IMG/VR virus record: IMGVR_UViG_3300044765_000142 | Span: 1 to 51,550 of that record | DNA length: 51,550 nt | Reading direction: 5' to 3' (one strand) | Origin: a virus | Shown: piece after piece, positions 5,985-50,616 of the stretch | Numbering within the stretch: the stretch's first letter is position 1 | How the letters are laid out: the number at the start of each line of letters is the position of its first letter | The notes under the pieces: model-generated | What the model was told of the DNA's origin: nothing | Seen by the model: the letters and a program-made list of their open reading frames with translations, nothing else | The model's database searches: none | Position numbers and translations under genes: made by a program

Positions 5985-6374
5985 TTAGCGCTTCTTGGCC
6001 GACTGACGGGTGGTGTTCACCGTGTCGACCGCCTTCTTCAGCGCTTCCTTCTCTTCTTCCGTCGTGGCGTCGGCGGCCAGCAGCTCCAGCGCGCGTGCCT
6101 CGACACGTGCTTGGAACTCCTCGTCGGCGAGCTGCTGGCGCGCAGCCGCGTCGATAGCGGCTTCGTAATCGGCTTTGCGCTTGGCGGCTGCGGCTTCTTC
6201 CTCCGCTTCCACGTCTTCCGCGTACTTGACAACGCCGGACGCCAATAGGCCGGACAGGCAGTTGTTGTCTTCTTCAGCGACAACAATCTTGCCATCATCG
6301 TCGGCAACGAACTCCTTGCCGAGAACGCTGACACTTGTGACGCCGGGGCGCACAACCTTGAGAATCGTATCCAT
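5985..6374 (-). CDS. Small acidic head-region protein, unknown function
   Basis: About 129 residues from ATG 6374, chosen because GGAGAG lies at good distance; a GTG at 6386 would have no spacing to it. The N-terminal 50 residues look like a compact beta domain (TILKVVRPGVTSVSVLGKEF). The rest is a highly charged Ala/Glu/Lys helix ending in a basic tail. It lies between capsid and connector genes, so a head-assembly or capsid-accessory role is likely, but I do not recognise the family. Confidence 0.7.
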   Translation of the reverse strand: MDTILKVVRPGVTSVSVLGKEFVADDDGKIVVAEEDNNCLSGLLASGVVKYAEDVEAEEEAAAAKRKADYEAAIDAAARQQLADEEFQARVEARALELLAADATTEEEKEALKKAVDTVNTTRQSAKKR

Positions 6375-6454
6375 GGTGCTCTCCACTAACTTTGGAAAAA
6401 CCGGGCGGAGGTTTCCCGCCGCCCGGCTATCTCGCCTTTAAAAGCCCGGCCGGG

Positions 6455-7948
6455 TTAGCCGTTGGCGATGTTGGTGATCACGCCCATCGAAGGCGGGAAG
6501 TAGTGCTGGAGCACCTCGTCGCAGTACACGCCGTACTCGTACTTCCGGCTGCGCAGCGGCCACTCGATCTGATAGTACTCGCGGCGAGTACGGATCTGGA
6601 TCACGTTGGTCACGTTGGACATCGGGTACGGCAGGCGGGTGGTCAGCGCCAAGATCGTGCCGGCAGGCATGTTCGGGTGCAGGTTGATGGGGATTTCAAC
6701 TGCGCCGTTCATGCTGTACTTGTTCTTGTACGACGTCACCATCGTACCGCCAGCAATCTTGGCTTGATCAACCGTGAACACGAAACGCTGTGCTTGGCTG
6801 GTTGCGCCGGCCAGCACCTTCTTGTTGATGTTGCCCTGTTCTTGCGAGGACACCAGCAGCATATCCGGCGACAGACGGTAGTTGTCCCAGCGGTCCTTCA
6901 GCATGGCGTCGATTTCCACCACGCCGCCAGCCGAGTCAGCTGTCAGCGGCGCGCCTGCGTTGTCCTTCACGTAGGCGTTGGAGCCAGCGCCCAGCGCGAT
7001 GGACAGCAGACCGTCGAACACGAGCGCGTTCTTGCTGTTGTCCTGGTTGCCGCTGACGATGGCCGAAGCCAGTTGCGCGGAAGCGTTGGACGCCTGCGTG
7101 AACACGACGCTGTTCGTGGTGGTGATGCCGTACATGCGCTCAGCACCGGCGGCACCCAGAAACCACGCATACGCCACGGCGCCGCGAATCGGCGCTGCCA
7201 CTGCGGTGATGCTCGACGTGGTGCCTGTGGTGGTGACCGTCGCGGCCGGCGAAACCTGCGAGCTGCCGCCGCCGTACTGGTCGGTCGAGCCGTCCGTGTT
7301 GTTGCGGGTGATGAGCCCCTGCACCTGCGGGAAGCCGTTGGCGTCCGGGTTGGCTTGCGCGTTGTTGAGGCCTTCCAGCGTGAGTGCCACAACGATCACG
7401 CTCCACGTGGCAGCGGCCAGCGTACCGCCCGTGGTGGAGCCCGTCAGCGTCGGCGCGGCCGGTTGGCCCAGCGCGATTTGCGTGCTGTTGCCGCCCAGGA
7501 TCACGATTTCTTCCTGCAGCATCAGCGATTCCAGCAGCGTGCGGGTCGCCAGTGCCTTCACGTCGTCGAAGCCTTCAGCAGCGTAGTCGGCTTCGAACGT
7601 CACGTAGTCTTCCAGGCCCAGACCACGGTATGCCGCGATATAGTCCTTGGTCGTGTGCACGACGGCGCCGCCACGATTGCCTTGCGACACGCCTGCCGAC
7701 AGTTGGCCGATGTTGATGCCCGTGATAGCGCGCCAGTTGGCCTGGATACCGCCCTTGCCGGAAACGCGCGGGATCATGTTGCGCAGCGGGGTGAGCACCG
7801 GGTACAGCAGCTTCGCACCGGCTTCCAGGTCGTAGAACGTCAGACCGGAAGTCGGGTTGGACGACTGCGTGTACGCCTTGTTCAGCGGCTGCGACTGCGC
7901 GCTCTTGATGAGCGACAGCGATTGTTGGATGAGTTCTGCTGCATTCAT
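6455..7948 (-). CDS. Major capsid protein
   Basis: 497 residues, after a strong AGGAG. The N-terminal part has a helical segment and FYDLEAGAKLLYPVLTPLRNMIPRVSGKGG, then ITGINIGQLSAGVSQGNRGG, as in HK97-fold capsid proteins of long-tailed phages. The last 100 residues include EIPINLHPNMPAGTILAL and YQIEWPLRSRKYEYGVY, the usual C-terminal strands. A Thr/Ala/Ser/Gly-rich middle (about residues 160-300) is probably an inserted or surface domain. It directly follows the protease/scaffold gene. Confidence 0.9.
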   Translation of the reverse strand: MNAAELIQQSLSLIKSAQSQPLNKAYTQSSNPTSGLTFYDLEAGAKLLYPVLTPLRNMIPRVSGKGGIQANWRAITGINIGQLSAGVSQGNRGGAVVHTTKDYIAAYRGLGLEDYVTFEADYAAEGFDDVKALATRTLLESLMLQEEIVILGGNSTQIALGQPAAPTLTGSTTGGTLAAATWSVIVVALTLEGLNNAQANPDANGFPQVQGLITRNNTDGSTDQYGGGSSQVSPAATVTTTGTTSSITAVAAPIRGAVAYAWFLGAAGAERMYGITTTNSVVFTQASNASAQLASAIVSGNQDNSKNALVFDGLLSIALGAGSNAYVKDNAGAPLTADSAGGVVEIDAMLKDRWDNYRLSPDMLLVSSQEQGNINKKVLAGATSQAQRFVFTVDQAKIAGGTMVTSYKNKYSMNGAVEIPINLHPNMPAGTILALTTRLPYPMSNVTNVIQIRTRREYYQIEWPLRSRKYEYGVYCDEVLQHYFPPSMGVITNIANG

Positions 7949-44742: not shown

Positions 44743-45741
44743 ATGCCCAAGGAAAAACCATACGTACAAGATCCGCCGTTCTGCATTCAGGTCGAGCTGA
44801 CCGAAGGCTGCAACCTCCGTTGCGAGGGTTGCGGTATCCACGGCATCCGGGAGAAGGCGGGCGGCCCGTACAAGTTCATGACCACGCAGACCGCCCGGCT
44901 GTTTGCGCAACAGGTGGCGGAGGCGGGCTGGAACTGCCGCATCGAGATGGCTATGCACGGCGAGCCGAGCCTGAATCCCGAAATGCTGGAGATCGTGGCT
45001 GCCATGCGCCAGCACCTGCCGCGCCACCAATTGATGATGACCAGCAACGGCAGCGGCTTCCTCAAGGATACGGCCAACAAAATCCGCGCCCTGTTCGATG
45101 CCGGGCTTAACGTACTGGCACTGGATGACTACGAAGCCGTCAAGATCGTGCCCAAAGTGCTGGAGCGCGCCATGGTGGAGGAGCTGGCCGCCAGTGGCGT
45201 TACGGTCAAGCGCTACCCGCAGGACGGATTGGAGTGGTCCCCGCACAGGCGCTGGCCCAAGCGTGCCCGCATGCTGATCGTTATTGAGGACATACAGAAG
45301 GCCACCGAAGGCAGCCATGCCAAGATCAACAACCATGCGGGCTACGGCGGCGCGCCCAACGACAGCAAGCGCGGCGTACGCTGTGCCAAACCGTTCCGCG
45401 AGATGGGTATCCGTTGGGATGGCAAGGTGGCTGGTTGCTGCATTGACTGGACCGGCACGTTGAAGGCTGGCGACATCAGAAAGCAAGATATCGAAGAAAT
45501 CTGGCACGGTGCGGTATTCGACGCCATGCGACACAAGCTGTACCACGGTCAACGCGACTTCGGTCCGTGCGATGGCTGCGACCACGAGACGTATCGCCTC
45601 GGTCTGCTGCCGGACAAGCTGGGCCAGCGCACGTTGCCACTACCCACAGCGGCGCACGAAGCCACGCTGAAGCAGGCCATGCGCGGCGCCAGCTACACGC
45701 CCATCGTGCTCCAGCCGTGGATGCCGAAGGGTAAAAAGTAG
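44743..45741 (+). CDS. Radical SAM protein with SPASM-like C-terminus
   Basis: 332 residues. ELTEGCNLRCEGC (18-30) gives the CX3CX2C cluster motif (Cys23, 27, 30). HGEP (72-75) is the SAM-binding GGE-like motif. CAKPFREMGIRWDGKVAGCC (214-233) with CDGCD (276-280) resembles the auxiliary-cluster region of SPASM/twitch enzymes. The substrate is unknown. It heads the group with a thymidylate-synthase homologue and a putative base-hypermodification protein, so a reaction on a modified thymine is an attractive inference. Peptide modification is the alternative. Confidence 0.85.
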   Translation: MPKEKPYVQDPPFCIQVELTEGCNLRCEGCGIHGIREKAGGPYKFMTTQTARLFAQQVAEAGWNCRIEMAMHGEPSLNPEMLEIVAAMRQHLPRHQLMMTSNGSGFLKDTANKIRALFDAGLNVLALDDYEAVKIVPKVLERAMVEELAASGVTVKRYPQDGLEWSPHRRWPKRARMLIVIEDIQKATEGSHAKINNHAGYGGAPNDSKRGVRCAKPFREMGIRWDGKVAGCCIDWTGTLKAGDIRKQDIEEIWHGAVFDAMRHKLYHGQRDFGPCDGCDHETYRLGLLPDKLGQRTLPLPTAAHEATLKQAMRGASYTPIVLQPWMPKGKK

Positions 45742-45778
45742 AGCTACAATAACGCCACCCTACTTAAAGGAGCACACT

Positions 45779-46036
45779 ATGTTCGCTTTCCTCAAGCGGC
45801 TGTACAGACGGTTCCGCAAGCCGCGCCCGCCCGTAGACCCCGTGACACACTACGCACGCGAAACTCTACGTGAGATATGGATCGGCGCGCTGAACGATGA
45901 CGATGCTTATCGCATCGGCAAATTGCCGGCTAACTTCTTCATGCCCAAGAAGAAACACAACGTGGATGAAGATACTTACGACGGCGTGCCGTACGAGAAG
46001 CTGGTGGCCGACTCTGAACCCGGGAGAAAACCATGA
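45779..46036 (+). CDS. 85-residue basic protein, unknown function
   Basis: AAAGGAGCACACT precedes the ATG. Very basic start (FLKRLYRRFRKPRPPV), then THYARETLREIWIGALNDDD and an acidic end. A weak TACAAT element lies 33 bases upstream. It is coupled to the next gene by ATGA. Confidence 0.65.
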   Translation: MFAFLKRLYRRFRKPRPPVDPVTHYARETLREIWIGALNDDDAYRIGKLPANFFMPKKKHNVDEDTYDGVPYEKLVADSEPGRKP

Positions 46037-47172
46037 AAGAAAAAGATATCGGCGTGCACATGTTCCGCACGTGCGTCGTGCATTTGACGCCTGTGGAAGG
46101 CAGCATGCAAGCCAGCGCCCGCGTAGCGCGATGGTTGGCGGAAACCATGGGTGTGCCGCTTATTGACGACGCGGTGAGTCTGGACTTCTTTCTGCACTGT
46201 ATCAGCGGCCATCCGGACGACAAGCCCGGCCACCGGGACGTCACCGTATTCTTCGTGAACGGCCCCATCGCGTTCTGTGGCTTCCGTGACGAAATGGGCA
46301 GTCGGCTGCTGCCCCGTGTGCGCCGGGTGGTGTGGGTGCAGCAGGACTACACTATCACCCTGCCGCCAAACCAAGCCTACAGTCGCCCCACCAAGGCGGA
46401 GACGCCGTTCCGCGCGGAGTTCCACAAGATTCCGCATGTGCATCTGTGGTCTACCTGCATTGACGTACTCGCCAAGCGGCAGGACAAGCAGGTGCCCGGT
46501 TGCGAGTATGACGAGTACTTCAACTGGAATGCGCTTACCTACGCCCCCATGCCGAAAGACTGGCACCAGAATGGCGAGCGACTGTTCGAAATGAACAACG
46601 GGCTGTTCTACTACGGCGCACTGCGGGCAGGGCGCGTGCGGCGTCTGATCGAACTGCTGGGTACCAACGCGCCGGTCACCATCGGCGCGAGCAACCTGAA
46701 CGCGCGTACGGCCAAGGAATGGGAACTAATAGCGCCGAACGCGCAGCTGCGCGGGCCGACCAAAGGTGAAGCACGTTACGTGCCTACCAACCGCAACACG
46801 TTCGGCTACAGCGCGGTCATACCGGAAATTGCGATGTATCGTCAGAGCCTTTACGTGGCCGACGATGAAAGCAACACGGCCTTCCATTCTCTGGCGAACC
46901 GATTTTACGAAGTACTCAGTACTCCTCTTACCGTGCTGTGGCTGGATGCAGCCGGCGCCGCTACTTACGATCGCGCCGGCCTCCAGGGCTGGGAGCGGTT
47001 CGCGGTGAATAACGCCAACCACGTTGCGACGCGCCTGCGCATGACCAACAAGGAACTGACCCGTATGGCGGAGGAGCAGCGCGAACTATGGTTGTCGAAA
47101 GACCCATACAAGCAACTGAAGGACCAGCTCAAAGACATCGTGAAGTTCGTTAAAAAGGAGTGGAAGATATGA
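46033..47172 (+). CDS. GT-B-like phage glycosyltransferase (putative)
   Basis: 379 residues. The C-terminal half has LFYYGALRAGRVRRLIELLG, VTIGASNLNART, GYSAVIPEIAMYRQSLYVAD and SLANRFYEVLSTPL. The 'fYYGa.R.gR', 'sLYi.D..s....pANRFYE.l' phrases are typical of phage GT-B-type glycosyltransferases. No signal or membrane segment is present, so it acts in the cytoplasm. With a base-hypermodification protein and a thymidylate-synthase homologue next to it, glycosylation of a modified DNA base is the natural inference. The assignment is by eye. Confidence 0.55.
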   Translation: MKEKDIGVHMFRTCVVHLTPVEGSMQASARVARWLAETMGVPLIDDAVSLDFFLHCISGHPDDKPGHRDVTVFFVNGPIAFCGFRDEMGSRLLPRVRRVVWVQQDYTITLPPNQAYSRPTKAETPFRAEFHKIPHVHLWSTCIDVLAKRQDKQVPGCEYDEYFNWNALTYAPMPKDWHQNGERLFEMNNGLFYYGALRAGRVRRLIELLGTNAPVTIGASNLNARTAKEWELIAPNAQLRGPTKGEARYVPTNRNTFGYSAVIPEIAMYRQSLYVADDESNTAFHSLANRFYEVLSTPLTVLWLDAAGAATYDRAGLQGWERFAVNNANHVATRLRMTNKELTRMAEEQRELWLSKDPYKQLKDQLKDIVKFVKKEWKI

Positions 47173-48041
47173 GCGAATTCAACAAGGAGGCACTCAAGGT
47201 GCTCCAGTATTGGATCGTAGAGCGCGAGCGTATCCGTCAGCGCAAGGAAGCCGGCCAGCCGCAGCCGTGGACCAAGGACCCTATTCTCGCAACCTATCGG
47301 TTCTGTAACGTCGATCGCAACGACGACCGTGTCACGCGCGAAATTCACGCCATGTGGCTGGATCCGTATAGCGGTCAGCCAGATCTGTGGTTTGCGATGA
47401 CCGTGGCGCGTCTGCTGAACCTGCCGGCCAGCCTGTGGGCTGTGGAACCGGCCGTGTTCCGTAAGCAAAAGCCCAGCGGCCGCCGTGTGGTTGAATTCAC
47501 GCCTGCTATGTTCGTGGAAATTCTACACGATCGTCGTGCTGATGGGCACAAGCTGTTCAATGCAGCGTACATCGTGAGTACGAATGGGCGCGCCATGGAC
47601 AAGGTGGAGTATTTGGCAAGCCACGTACTCACTCCGCTGTGGGGCAAGCGTGCGGAAGTTCGCCCGCGCGCCGGCGACACGCTGGACAGCTTCCACAAGC
47701 GGCTCGTGCAGTTCGACGGTATGGGCAGCTTCATGGCGGCGCAGGTGGTGGGTGACATCAAGTACGACGACCACGGCCATTTGCACAAGGCGCCGGACTT
47801 CAGCACTTGGGCAGCCAGCGGCCCCGGCAGCCGGCGCGGCATGAACCGTCTGCTGGGCCGCCCCACCGATGCGCCGTTCCGTGAGGACCTGTGGCGTGTC
47901 AGCATGGTTCTGCTGCGCGAACGATTCCCCAACATTACCGCGCAGAATCTGCAAAACTGCTTGTGTGAGTTTGACAAGTATATGCGTGTTAAACTCGGCG
48001 AAGGCACACCGAAACAGCATTACAAACCACAGGAGAACTGA
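47169..48041 (+). CDS. Putative DNA-base hypermodification protein (HMUDK helical/aGPT-PPlase type)
   Basis: 290 residues, AAGGAG before ATG 47169. The N-terminus has YWIVERERIRQRKEAGQPQP followed by WTKDPILATYRFCNVDRNDD and RVTREI (15-59). The consensus 'ER..I..R..G.p.PWT.DPIL..YrF.NV.R..DrvtR' is that of the helical family linked to 5-hydroxymethyl-dU kinases and a-glutamyl/putrescinyl-thymine pyrophosphorylases in phages with complex thymine modifications. The middle holds FDGMGSFMAAQVVGDIKY, a helix-hairpin-helix-like segment as in DNA glycosylases. It probably acts on DNA. No P-loop kinase is visible in the window. Confidence 0.65.
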   Translation: MSEFNKEALKVLQYWIVERERIRQRKEAGQPQPWTKDPILATYRFCNVDRNDDRVTREIHAMWLDPYSGQPDLWFAMTVARLLNLPASLWAVEPAVFRKQKPSGRRVVEFTPAMFVEILHDRRADGHKLFNAAYIVSTNGRAMDKVEYLASHVLTPLWGKRAEVRPRAGDTLDSFHKRLVQFDGMGSFMAAQVVGDIKYDDHGHLHKAPDFSTWAASGPGSRRGMNRLLGRPTDAPFREDLWRVSMVLLRERFPNITAQNLQNCLCEFDKYMRVKLGEGTPKQHYKPQEN

Positions 48042-48042
48042 C

Positions 48043-49137
48043 ATGCTGGGAATCAACGCACGCAATGTGAACACCGCGCTGGAGGATGGGCTGAATATCC
48101 TCGAGCAACACGGCATCAAGTCCGACAGCCGCAACGGTGCCGTGCTGGTGGCGCCGTGGCCCATGATCACCGTCACACGCAACCCGACGGAGCGCGTGCT
48201 GTTCAGCGGCCTGCGCGACGCCAACCCGTTCTTCCACTTGGCGGAAGCATTCTGGATGCTGGCCGGTGCCAACGACACACAGTCCCTGACACGGTTCGTG
48301 CCACGCATGGCTGACTTCAGTGACGATGGCAAGACGCTCAACGGCGCGTACGGCCACCGCTGGCGCTGGCATTTCGGTAACGACCAATTGATGACGGCTA
48401 TTCAAGAGCTGCGCAACAACCCCAGCAGCCGGCGTGTGGTGTTGGCGATGTGGGACGGCGGCACGAAAATCAAGGTGTTCGACGAAGACACCGGATGCGA
48501 ATCCGCCTACGCAGAGATCGGCGATCTGGACAAGGCCATCAAGGGCAGCAAGGACGTGCCGTGCAATACGCACATCTACTTCGACGCCAACAAAGCCGGC
48601 CTGTTGGACATGACCGTGTGCTGCCGCAGCAATGACGCGGTGTGGGGTGCGCACGGCGCCAACGCGGTGCACTTCAGCGTGCTGCACGAGTTCGTGGCGC
48701 GCGCCGCTAAACTACCGCTCGGCAAGATGTACCAGTTCAGCAACAACTATCACATCTATACCGATCGGCCGGATGTACAGCGCCTGCTGGGCAAAGACGG
48801 CTACGTGGCTGACGACATGTACGCCGCCATGCAAGTTGAGCCGTGGCCGTTGTTGGCGACGCAGGAAGAATGGCGGTATTTTCTGAAAGACTGTGAGGTC
48901 ATGGCTAGGCTGCTGCGCTACGGTAGCCCGGAGTACTGCGACCCCGAGACGTACGACACCATCTTCTTCCGCAAAGTGTTTGCGCCCATGTTCCGTTACT
49001 ACGAGAACTTCAAAGCTACGAATCTGGCCGATGCGCCGCCAAAAGGCGGTGGCGAGCTAAACTTGTCGGTGGACTGGCACCGCGCGGCTTATCAGTGGGT
49101 ACAGCGTCGCGTCGACAAGGCAGGAGCACAAGTATGA
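48043..49137 (+). CDS. Thymidylate-synthase-family enzyme, probable dUMP hydroxymethylase
   Basis: 364 residues, CAGGAG before the ATG. It shows the TS folate/dUMP core: VPCNTHIYF with catalytic Cys174, CCRSNDAVWGAHGANAVHFS with Asn207, and the late FSNNYHIYTD. Asn207 lines up with the TS residue that selects dUMP; dCMP hydroxymethylases have Asp there. The N-terminal FFHLAEAFWMLAG is the usual TS helix. Such divergent phage enzymes next to base-hypermodification genes often make 5-hydroxymethyl-dUMP rather than dTMP; sequence alone cannot decide. Ends with ATGA overlap to the HD gene. Confidence 0.8.
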   Translation: MLGINARNVNTALEDGLNILEQHGIKSDSRNGAVLVAPWPMITVTRNPTERVLFSGLRDANPFFHLAEAFWMLAGANDTQSLTRFVPRMADFSDDGKTLNGAYGHRWRWHFGNDQLMTAIQELRNNPSSRRVVLAMWDGGTKIKVFDEDTGCESAYAEIGDLDKAIKGSKDVPCNTHIYFDANKAGLLDMTVCCRSNDAVWGAHGANAVHFSVLHEFVARAAKLPLGKMYQFSNNYHIYTDRPDVQRLLGKDGYVADDMYAAMQVEPWPLLATQEEWRYFLKDCEVMARLLRYGSPEYCDPETYDTIFFRKVFAPMFRYYENFKATNLADAPPKGGGELNLSVDWHRAAYQWVQRRVDKAGAQV

Positions 49138-49724
49138 GCCCCGCCCAAAAACGCTACGCGCTGGACGGCACGATCAACGGGGCCAAAACCGGCATGGAAC
49201 TGCTCGCGTTCCTGCGCCGCAGCGCGCAGGTGCGGCGGTTCCACACTGAGCACGTGATCCACCATCAGAACACTGGGGAGCACAGTTACTCGGTGGCGTG
49301 GCTGTGCTGGTATCTGTGCAGCATGGCCGGGCGGGAAGTGTCGGCTGGCTTGCTGTTGCATGCGCTGGCCCACGACGCCGCTGAGCACGCGCTTGGCGAC
49401 ATCCCCAGCCCCACCAAACGGGCGCTCGGCATTCGGGAAGAAGTGGACGCTATCGAAGCCGAAGCCATGGCGTACAACGGACTGTATCTCCCGAAGATCG
49501 AAAACTGGGAAGCCACGGTGCTCAAGTACGCCGACGCGCTGGAGGGCCTGCTGTACTGCTCGGAGGAAATCCAGCGCGGCAACCGACTCATTTACGCGGC
49601 TTACCGCAACTTCCGCGCATACGTCATGGAGCTGCTGAGTCCGGGTACGCAGCCCATCGACGCGCTGGACGATGCGGTGGGTCACATCCTTCTCAACCTC
49701 GACCAGTTGCATGGTCGTATTTAA
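49134..49724 (+). CDS. HD-domain 5'-deoxynucleotidase (YfbR-like)
   Basis: 196 residues. NTGEHSYSVAWLCWYL (His50), HALAHDAAEHALGDIPSPTK (His80-Asp81) and a later DALEGLLYC are the metal-binding pattern of YfbR-type HD nucleotidases, which hydrolyse dNMPs. Coupled to the TS-like gene. In phages with modified thymine such an enzyme could remove dTMP so that only the modified base is used; this is inference. Confidence 0.82.
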   Translation: MSPAQKRYALDGTINGAKTGMELLAFLRRSAQVRRFHTEHVIHHQNTGEHSYSVAWLCWYLCSMAGREVSAGLLLHALAHDAAEHALGDIPSPTKRALGIREEVDAIEAEAMAYNGLYLPKIENWEATVLKYADALEGLLYCSEEIQRGNRLIYAAYRNFRAYVMELLSPGTQPIDALDDAVGHILLNLDQLHGRI

Positions 49725-49738
49725 CCAAGGAGTCAACA

Positions 49739-50616
49739 TGACTGAACAAGCACTCGAAGCGAGCGACCGCCAAGTGGGCGGCGACCACTACAAAGCCACT
49801 TACCAGCATTGGCACGCTATGGAGGCGGAATTCGGCTACGGCTGGTTCGCCGGCTGCGCCACCAAGTACATCGCCCGCTTCGGCCGCAAGGAGCAGGACA
49901 CGGTGGGGCTGGAAAAGGCCATCCACTATATGGAGCGCGCGATCGAGATCGAGACTGTCTCGCCGGGGTGGTGCATCTGCAACCGCAACCACACAGGCGC
50001 AGAGGCGGCGCTGCTGCTCACGCAAAGCCTCGGCATCAAAAACGAACACGCACGCCAAGCCATCATCCATGCGATGACGGCCACCTGTGCCTCCGACATG
50101 CAGACTGTGATCGAGCAGACCAAGCTCCTGATCGAAGACGCGAACCACGGCGAGCATGGCAAGGTGCCCGAGAACCTCGGCATCACGTTCACGCCGGCGC
50201 CTATCAACGGGTACCGCACGCTGCGCGCGGACGAGGTGAACCTGATCAACCTGCTCAAGAAGGGCGGCAGCACGTTTGTTGGCCTGCTGCACAAGGTGTT
50301 CGACCTGTACGAGGCTGAGGACGCGGCTGCCGACCGCGAAGCGAAGCTCCTGCAGGAAGACTTCAACACCCAAGTGCAGGCCATCATCGCCGAGCTGCCG
50401 GCACTGGAAGGCGAATCGGAAGACGCTACGTACGAACGGCGTATGGAGCGCATCCGGCCGCTGGAGCAGGAAGTTCGCACCAAGCTGGAAATGTTGGAAG
50501 CCGCCCACGCCAAGCGCCTGGAATCCGCCCGCTGGAATGCCATGGCAAAGCAGCGCGTGCAGGAAGCCGTGATGTTCGCCGTGCGTGCCGTGGCCCGGCC
50601 GGAAGGCGACGTCTAA
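49739..50616 (+). CDS. DUF3310 protein with Acb2-like (anti-CBASS) C-terminal region
   Basis: 292 residues. The first 75 residues are DUF3310: VGGDHYKATYQHWHAMEA, then GCATKYIARFGRK and LEKAIHYMERAIE. The C-terminal part begins INGYRTLRADEVNLINLLKK, continues in a coiled coil (about 195-255), and ends ARWNAMAKQRVQEAVMFAVR then AVARPEGDV. The 'GYR.L...e..LIN.iK..G' and 'RW.A.....lQ...M...RAVArPe' phrases match the Acb2 family that binds cyclic dinucleotides and blocks CBASS. The match is by eye; the long coiled-coil insert is unusual. Confidence 0.7.

Follow-up and report, generated by a model that had tools for sequence, protein, structure and literature searches.

The side-by-side occurrence in a viral genome of a predicted hydroxymethyl-uracil-forming enzyme, a putative sugar transferase and a radical S-adenosylmethionine (SAM) enzyme raises the question as to what end product such a virus builds on its thymine. 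We addressed this for the IMG/VR virus record IMGVR_UViG_3300044765_000142 (the whole record of 51,550 bp, classed as linear and here called the window), in which a five-gene block at 44743-49724 had been predicted to be a thymine hypermodification cluster of the kind known from phages M6, ViI and phiW-14. Our analysis makes it rather probable that the block specifies a kinase-less pathway to a glycosylated thymine derivative, in which 5-hydroxymethyl-deoxyuridine (5-hmdU) in DNA would be glycosylated and the sugar then oxidised or tailored by radical chemistry.

All five genes were found on the + strand at the predicted coordinates and with the predicted ATGA couplings. They encode a 332 residue BtrN-like radical SAM protein with a SPASM/twitch C-terminal domain (44743-45741), a 379 residue GT-B-fold glycosyltransferase (GT) of a family that we call GTa (46033-47172), an all-helical PF18723 protein (HMUDK_hel, 'aGPT-PPlase1'; 47169-48041), a 364 residue thymidylate synthase (TS)-family protein read as a dUMP hydroxymethylase (48043-49137) and a YfbR-like HD-domain 5'-deoxynucleotidase (49134-49724). 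The family assignments held as well, four of them through Pfam matches past the cut-offs and that of the GT through a structure model. An 85 residue open reading frame (ORF) on the same strand (45779-46036), absent from the original prediction, overlaps the start of the GT gene; it had no match in the family libraries and no relative in the first 92 loci. ATGA overlaps at 46033/46036, 47169/47172 and 49134/49137 and a 1-nt gap between 48041 and 48043 couple this small ORF and the GT, PF18723, TS and HD genes. The G+C content of the five-gene block is 0.60 against 0.61 for the genome, and a terminator and promoter scan gave a signal near background. The block is real and operon-like, and its linkage is much stronger than chance would allow, with dozens of non-redundant viral contigs holding the same genes.

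With regard to the base, the TS-family protein matched Pfam Thymidylat_synt (1.1e-17) and its profile matched the CMP hydroxymethylase MilA best (E 6e-36), with true thymidylate synthases behind it (1e-22). The catalytic cysteine (C174) is present and Asn207 is aligned with an Asp of MilA. Asn or Asp at this position (177 in E. coli numbering) separates dUMP from dCMP enzymes (PMC8670742), and because of this residue and the closer profile to MilA we read the protein as a dUMP hydroxymethylase. Phage proteins annotated as deoxyuridylate hydroxymethyltransferases share ~43% identity with it. Family and residues thus point strongly to 5-hmdU as the modified base, and the prediction of a thymine hypermodification cluster is supported. 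The HD protein matched the Pfam YfbR-like family (5.6e-17) and, below its cut-off, the NCBIfam 5'-deoxynucleotidase model (6.8e-12). Its gene position matches those of YuA gp18 and Pam3_53, and we propose that it biases the nucleotide pool against dTMP.

The PF18723, TS-family dUMP hydroxymethylase and YfbR-type HD genes also occur in YuA/M6-like clusters, in the same order near the DNA polymerase, and those clusters likewise hold a radical SAM gene somewhere within them. This common core would fit an M6-like amino-acid hypermodification in which the kinase and the transferase have gone undetected and the GT is a passenger. However, neither PF18748 nor our own profile for the 5-hmdU DNA kinase had a match over the 51.5-kb record (YuA, Pam3 and locus L020 being PF18748-positive), and the amino-acid:DNA transferase family PF18724 had no match over the whole record with YuA and Pam3 positive; in YuA these families are represented by gp13 and gp10, respectively. 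Relatives of the YuA gp12-type radical SAM enzyme, of the gp11 pyridoxal phosphate (PLP) enzyme and of other YuA and Pam3 cluster proteins were not present in the window, a GT-B enzyme occupies the kinase slot, and the window radical SAM protein belongs to a BtrN-like twitch family not detectably related to gp12 (E 0.55). As the enzymes that define the M6/YuA pathway were not found in the record, the cluster does not classify with that type and an amino-acid pathway is very improbable here. The predicted lack of a P-loop HMdU kinase was therefore borne out, whereas the portrayal of the cluster as a close cousin of the M6, ViI and phiW-14 pathway was not supported. A TET dioxygenase was also not found in the window, in a search in which no control genome was positive; a separate search did detect this family in six other records.

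What stands in the kinase slot was recognised by its fold. The GT had no convincing match in Pfam (including PF20691, TAGT), PHROGs or NCBIfam, and a single-sequence scan of viral contigs found nothing; a profile scan with the GT and its relatives gave 93 relatives in viral contigs. The AlphaFold model (pLDDT 90.8, pTM 0.90, 50 sequences in the alignment) had Gtf3 (3qkw; E 1.7e-6, prob 1.0) as its best Foldseek match in the PDB, with most of the top 20 being GT-B glycosyltransferases, and among viral structures it matched further glycosyltransferases and, lower down, a predicted phage 'DNA alpha-GT' (E 6.5e-4). Residues R290, F291 and E293 are invariant in the family and resemble what we take to be a GT-B donor-site motif. 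On the strength of its predicted structure the protein is a GT-B glycosyltransferase, in line with the original prediction.

In order to assess what the GT travels with, we applied profiles for PF18723-type, TS, HD, radical SAM and kinase proteins and for four GT families to the ORFs of 259 loci. With profiles seeded from genes of these same loci, a bias the counts carry, a GT-family gene was present near the radical SAM gene in 47/47 non-redundant loci over all scans and in 56/56 in the second scan (radical SAM counts refer to loci with 3 kb on each side). Most of the 47 also have PF18723 and TS, and a kinase was absent from 41 of them. The median gap from the radical SAM gene to the nearest same-strand GT was -18 bp, an overlap, and it was at most 100 bp in 92 of 116 loci. 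In a control, 52 GT-family ORFs were found in the 478 kb within 4 kb of PF18723 genes compared with 2 in the 313 kb beyond. Four GT types stand beside the radical SAM gene. Besides GTa these are a second GT-B-like family (some of its 21 members with weak Pfam GT matches; its profile comparison with GTa gave E 0.01 over 48 columns), a Glycos_transf_1-like family and TAGT (TET-associated glycosyltransferases), a Pfam DNA-glycosyltransferase family that many related radical SAM loci use and for which 27 of the 30 members scanned matched PF20691. In T6-like phages TAGT presumably places a second glucose on hydroxymethyl-cytosine (PMC13390438). Along a tree of 68 radical SAM sequences the label of the nearest GT changes at least 17 times with the radical SAM gene constant, a count that is probably high because some loci hold two GTs.

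This linkage makes a good case that the GT would act on DNA, placing a sugar onto 5-hmdU. Surface glycans are frequent targets of GT-B enzymes and the best solved relative, Gtf3, glycosylates protein, so that the GT and the radical SAM enzyme might instead serve the host surface, a small molecule or another non-DNA target beside an hmdU cassette; we regard this as most unlikely given that divergent phages show this linkage repeatedly, with four GT families whose genes mostly abut and also with TET dioxygenases.

The role of the PF18723 protein (Pfam E 1.5e-37) can be viewed in the same context. In YuA, Sonora and Pam3 the PF18723 gene directly follows that of the P-loop 5-hmdU DNA kinase and precedes TS, and in the window it is the GT that takes the place of the kinase. 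A sequence search against solved structures found nothing. The AlphaFold model (pLDDT 96.4) gave weak structural matches in the PDB, with nine of the ten best being helix-hairpin-helix DNA glycosylases of the AlkA/OGG/8-oxoG kind (E at least 0.065, TM ~0.3; best match E 0.065 and prob 0.77, second-ranked prob 0.97). We infer that this protein may be a base-flipping, 5-hmdU-recognising partner of the GT. The pyrophosphorylase role that had been suggested for it was not supported, and its placement in PF18723 itself stood.

The radical SAM protein matched Pfam SPASM (3.5e-13) and Radical_SAM (1.9e-9), both past their cut-offs, and its best solved relative is BtrN (E 1.1e-14), the 2-deoxy-scyllo-inosamine dehydrogenase of butirosin biosynthesis, with the radical SAM and twitch domains both aligned. 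As in BtrN there is a CX3CX2C motif (C23, C27, C30) and four further conserved cysteines (C214, C232, C276, C279), which would hold an auxiliary cluster, and all seven are kept in 124/124 aligned family members. BtrN converts an aminocyclitol alcohol to a ketone with one auxiliary 4Fe-4S cluster on four cysteines, and acts on the free aminocyclitol (PMC9012708). In contrast to BtrN, the window protein is ~60 residues longer and its phage family is nearly absent from the cellular genomes searched; at least 127 relatives were found in viral contigs and, within the reach of a pattern scan, two clear matches in 85,000 cellular species genomes, both in Patescibacteria bins. One of these (L253) adjoins the same GT, PF18723, TS and HD genes and the other (L254) adjoins PF18723, TAGT, TS and HD. 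No close relative was found in cultured phages, only distant ones (~23-25%) being seen in a human faecal phage record and in Campylobacter phages; in Campylobacter phage CP20 (L270, 4926-5771) an amidinotransferase gene is followed, after a few hypothetical genes, by the distant BtrN-like gene (~23%). L253 is also the closest relative of the window. There (JAGWWT010000024.1, 5353-11127) the order radical SAM, GT, PF18723, TS and HD is kept with 78, 61 and 63% identity for the first three, and a C5-cytosine-methyltransferase-like gene is inserted between radical SAM and GT; the contig is probably a mis-binned or infecting phage.

We propose that the radical SAM enzyme is a sugar dehydrogenase or tailoring enzyme, and the source of the base provides a means of asking whether the sugar is its substrate. 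TET enzymes give hydroxymethyl-cytosine and TS-type enzymes hydroxymethyl-uracil. A TET/JBP dioxygenase was searched for in 12 radical SAM records, most of which have neither PF18723 nor TS in the vicinity of the radical SAM gene, and was found in six, none of which had PF18723 or TS; in L224 the TET gene is directly 3' of the radical SAM gene. Since the radical SAM gene occurs with a GT in both TS-type and TET-containing records, it tracks the sugar transferase and not the base source, an argument for the sugar as its substrate. This gives, with the GT linkage, good grounds for a predicted action on the sugar. Radical SAM isomerases of the M6 route are reported to act on the base or its 5-hydroxymethyl group, and with a radical SAM gene in the YuA-type cluster (gp12) the window enzyme could likewise modify the base or the hydroxymethyl group itself, for example by forming a C-C or C-N bond, the GT having a separate role. 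We hold this to be improbable, as gp12 is not detectably related, a GT is near in 47/47 loci and the radical SAM gene occurs with both kinds of base source.

The glycosylation pathway that we favour can be set out as follows. The TS-family enzyme would convert dUMP to 5-hydroxymethyl-dUMP, as family and residues strongly suggest, with the HD enzyme hydrolysing competing 5'-deoxynucleoside monophosphates, and the phage polymerase would incorporate hydroxymethyl-dU. The helical PF18723 protein, perhaps DNA-glycosylase-like, may then find and flip 5-hmdU in DNA and pass it to the GT, a transferase by fold and linkage, which would use a host nucleotide-sugar to glycosylate the oxygen of the 5-hydroxymethyl group, DNA being the presumed acceptor. 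Finally the radical SAM enzyme, whose placement on the sugar comes from linkage, would abstract a carbinol hydrogen from the DNA-linked sugar with the auxiliary cluster as electron acceptor, leaving the sugar probably as a keto-sugar, or epimerised or otherwise tailored. Oxidation to a keto-sugar is modestly suggested by the BtrN likeness, from which alone it is drawn. An end product unlike the known ones, as the original prediction had anticipated, is supported in this way, with the comparative evidence pointing to glycosylation and a radical SAM enzyme acting on the sugar. The fuller proposal, that in a widespread class of uncultured phages thymine is replaced by 5-hydroxymethyl-uracil carrying a sugar oxidised in place to a keto- (carbonyl-) sugar by a BtrN-like radical SAM enzyme, as a step common to hmU and TET-derived hmC branches, is put forward tentatively as one possibility.

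The order of the last two steps might be reversed, with the radical SAM enzyme acting on a nucleotide-sugar donor or free sugar and the GT then moving the sugar, by now modified, onto 5-hmdU. The substrate of BtrN itself is a free aminocyclitol (PMC9012708), and in L015 a nucleotidyltransferase fused to a phosphomannose-isomerase-type cupin lies between PF18723 and the GT (6114-6977), possibly for dedicated sugar-donor synthesis, as if unusual donors were made in some relatives. However, donor-synthesis genes were not recognised in the window, and the occurrence of the radical SAM gene with four GT families is easier to explain with a common product on DNA, although a common donor also fits; we judge this order to be unlikely.

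A number of points weigh against tailoring of a sugar already on DNA. The case is built on sequence, predicted structure and linkage, and the radical SAM enzyme resembles BtrN distantly and might catalyse another reaction. None of the sequence relatives of the GT has a known function that would fix its donor or acceptor, and nucleotide-sugar genes were not recognised in the window, so that the donor would have to be host-derived. The nearby GT is weakly assigned in L203, L219 and L228, three of the six records with TET, at 16-19% identity to the TAGT reference. A cultured phage with this exact gene set was not found, the set recurring in dozens of uncultured phages. Lastly, 12 of 30 non-redundant loci from the GTa scan hold both a GT and a kinase, and these kinases are true 5-HMUDK relatives. 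In favour of the proposal, GT and kinase tended to be mutually exclusive among 36 non-redundant PF18723 loci, of which 25 had a GT only, six a kinase only, one both and four neither (Fisher P 6.7e-4). Strict exclusivity of GT and kinase is rejected by the 12 of 30 loci with both, and the two replace one another in many phages but are paired in some. Clusters with GT and radical SAM genes and also a 5-HMUDK-like P-loop kinase were seen at L101, L104, L106, L117, L118 and L130.

Comparison with other systems places the window beside glycosylated hydroxymethyl-pyrimidine DNA (T-even glucosyl-hydroxymethyl-cytosine, TAGT, base J), in which a hydroxymethyl pyrimidine is made first and a DNA glycosyltransferase then adds the sugar. 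A source of hydroxymethyl-pyrimidine (TS-type in the window) and a GT in the same operon are common to both, and relatives of the window radical SAM gene adjoin TAGT and TET genes. Unlike those systems the window has a predicted uracil base from a TS-family enzyme, a GT that falls outside TAGT and shows no detectable sequence likeness to that of T4, and an added PF18723 protein and predicted radical SAM sugar-tailoring step. Clusters of the pelagiphage HTVC023P type carry TS, aGPT-PPlase1, 5'-deoxynucleotidase and a putative glucosyltransferase (PMC9599517), an earlier record of a glycosyltransferase beside PF18723, TS and HD, but a radical SAM enzyme is unmentioned there and the glycosyl route is not worked out. 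Phage YerA41 has an apparently glycan substitution of ~1 kDa on thymidine (PMC9023294). A radical SAM enzyme with a DNA glycosyltransferase was not described in the literature searched; the field's main primary papers lay outside that search and priority could not be fully judged.

Among cultured phages, relatives of the window GT (24% identity over 94%) were found in Escherichia phages vB_EcoM_IME392 and EP_H11 only. In IME392 this gene lies directly before PF18723 and near TS, as in the window, but no radical SAM relative was found nearby and a PIG-L deacetylase and a second possible GT are present instead (L007, 10298-15930, with the row PIG-L deacetylase, possible second GT, window-type GT, PF18723, AAA_28 kinase and TS), making this cultured E. 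coli phage a candidate for an N-deacetylated amino-sugar on hmdU. Sulfotransferase-like genes were observed between PF18723 and TS and near GTs in L021 (8849-9631), L068 (10016-10723), L077 (5721-6482) and L092 (9539-10312), which suggests sulfated sugars on DNA in some relatives.

The remainder of the window contains a tailed-phage gene set including terminase, portal, tape measure, DNA polymerase, primase, ligase and helicase. The best covered terminase relatives in the phage collection, from Rhizobium, Roseobacter and Shewanella phages, reached at most ~43% identity, and megablast gave no match in that collection for the right-hand 21.5 kb. Immediately after the operon a gene at 49738-50616 (+ strand) joins a DUF3310-like N-terminus (0.0009, below cut-off) to a C-terminal Acb2/Tad1 hairpin domain (PF24729, 3.6e-10); it is possibly an anti-CBASS/anti-Thoeris nucleotide sponge and probably lies outside the modification pathway.

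These findings indicate a second branch of thymine hypermodification that proceeds by way of a sugar and without a kinase. They predict a concrete role for a phage-associated radical SAM family that had no prior link to DNA-sugar tailoring in the literature searched, and they suggest that PF18723, annotated as part of the 5-hmdU kinase, is a general 5-hmdU-recognition partner of kinases or glycosyltransferases alike. All parts of the cluster are single small enzymes amenable to in vitro assay, for which phages SP8 and SPO1 already provide 5-hmdU DNA. If true, the pathway would bring radical chemistry to a DNA-linked sugar and provide a chemically reactive handle in viral DNA.

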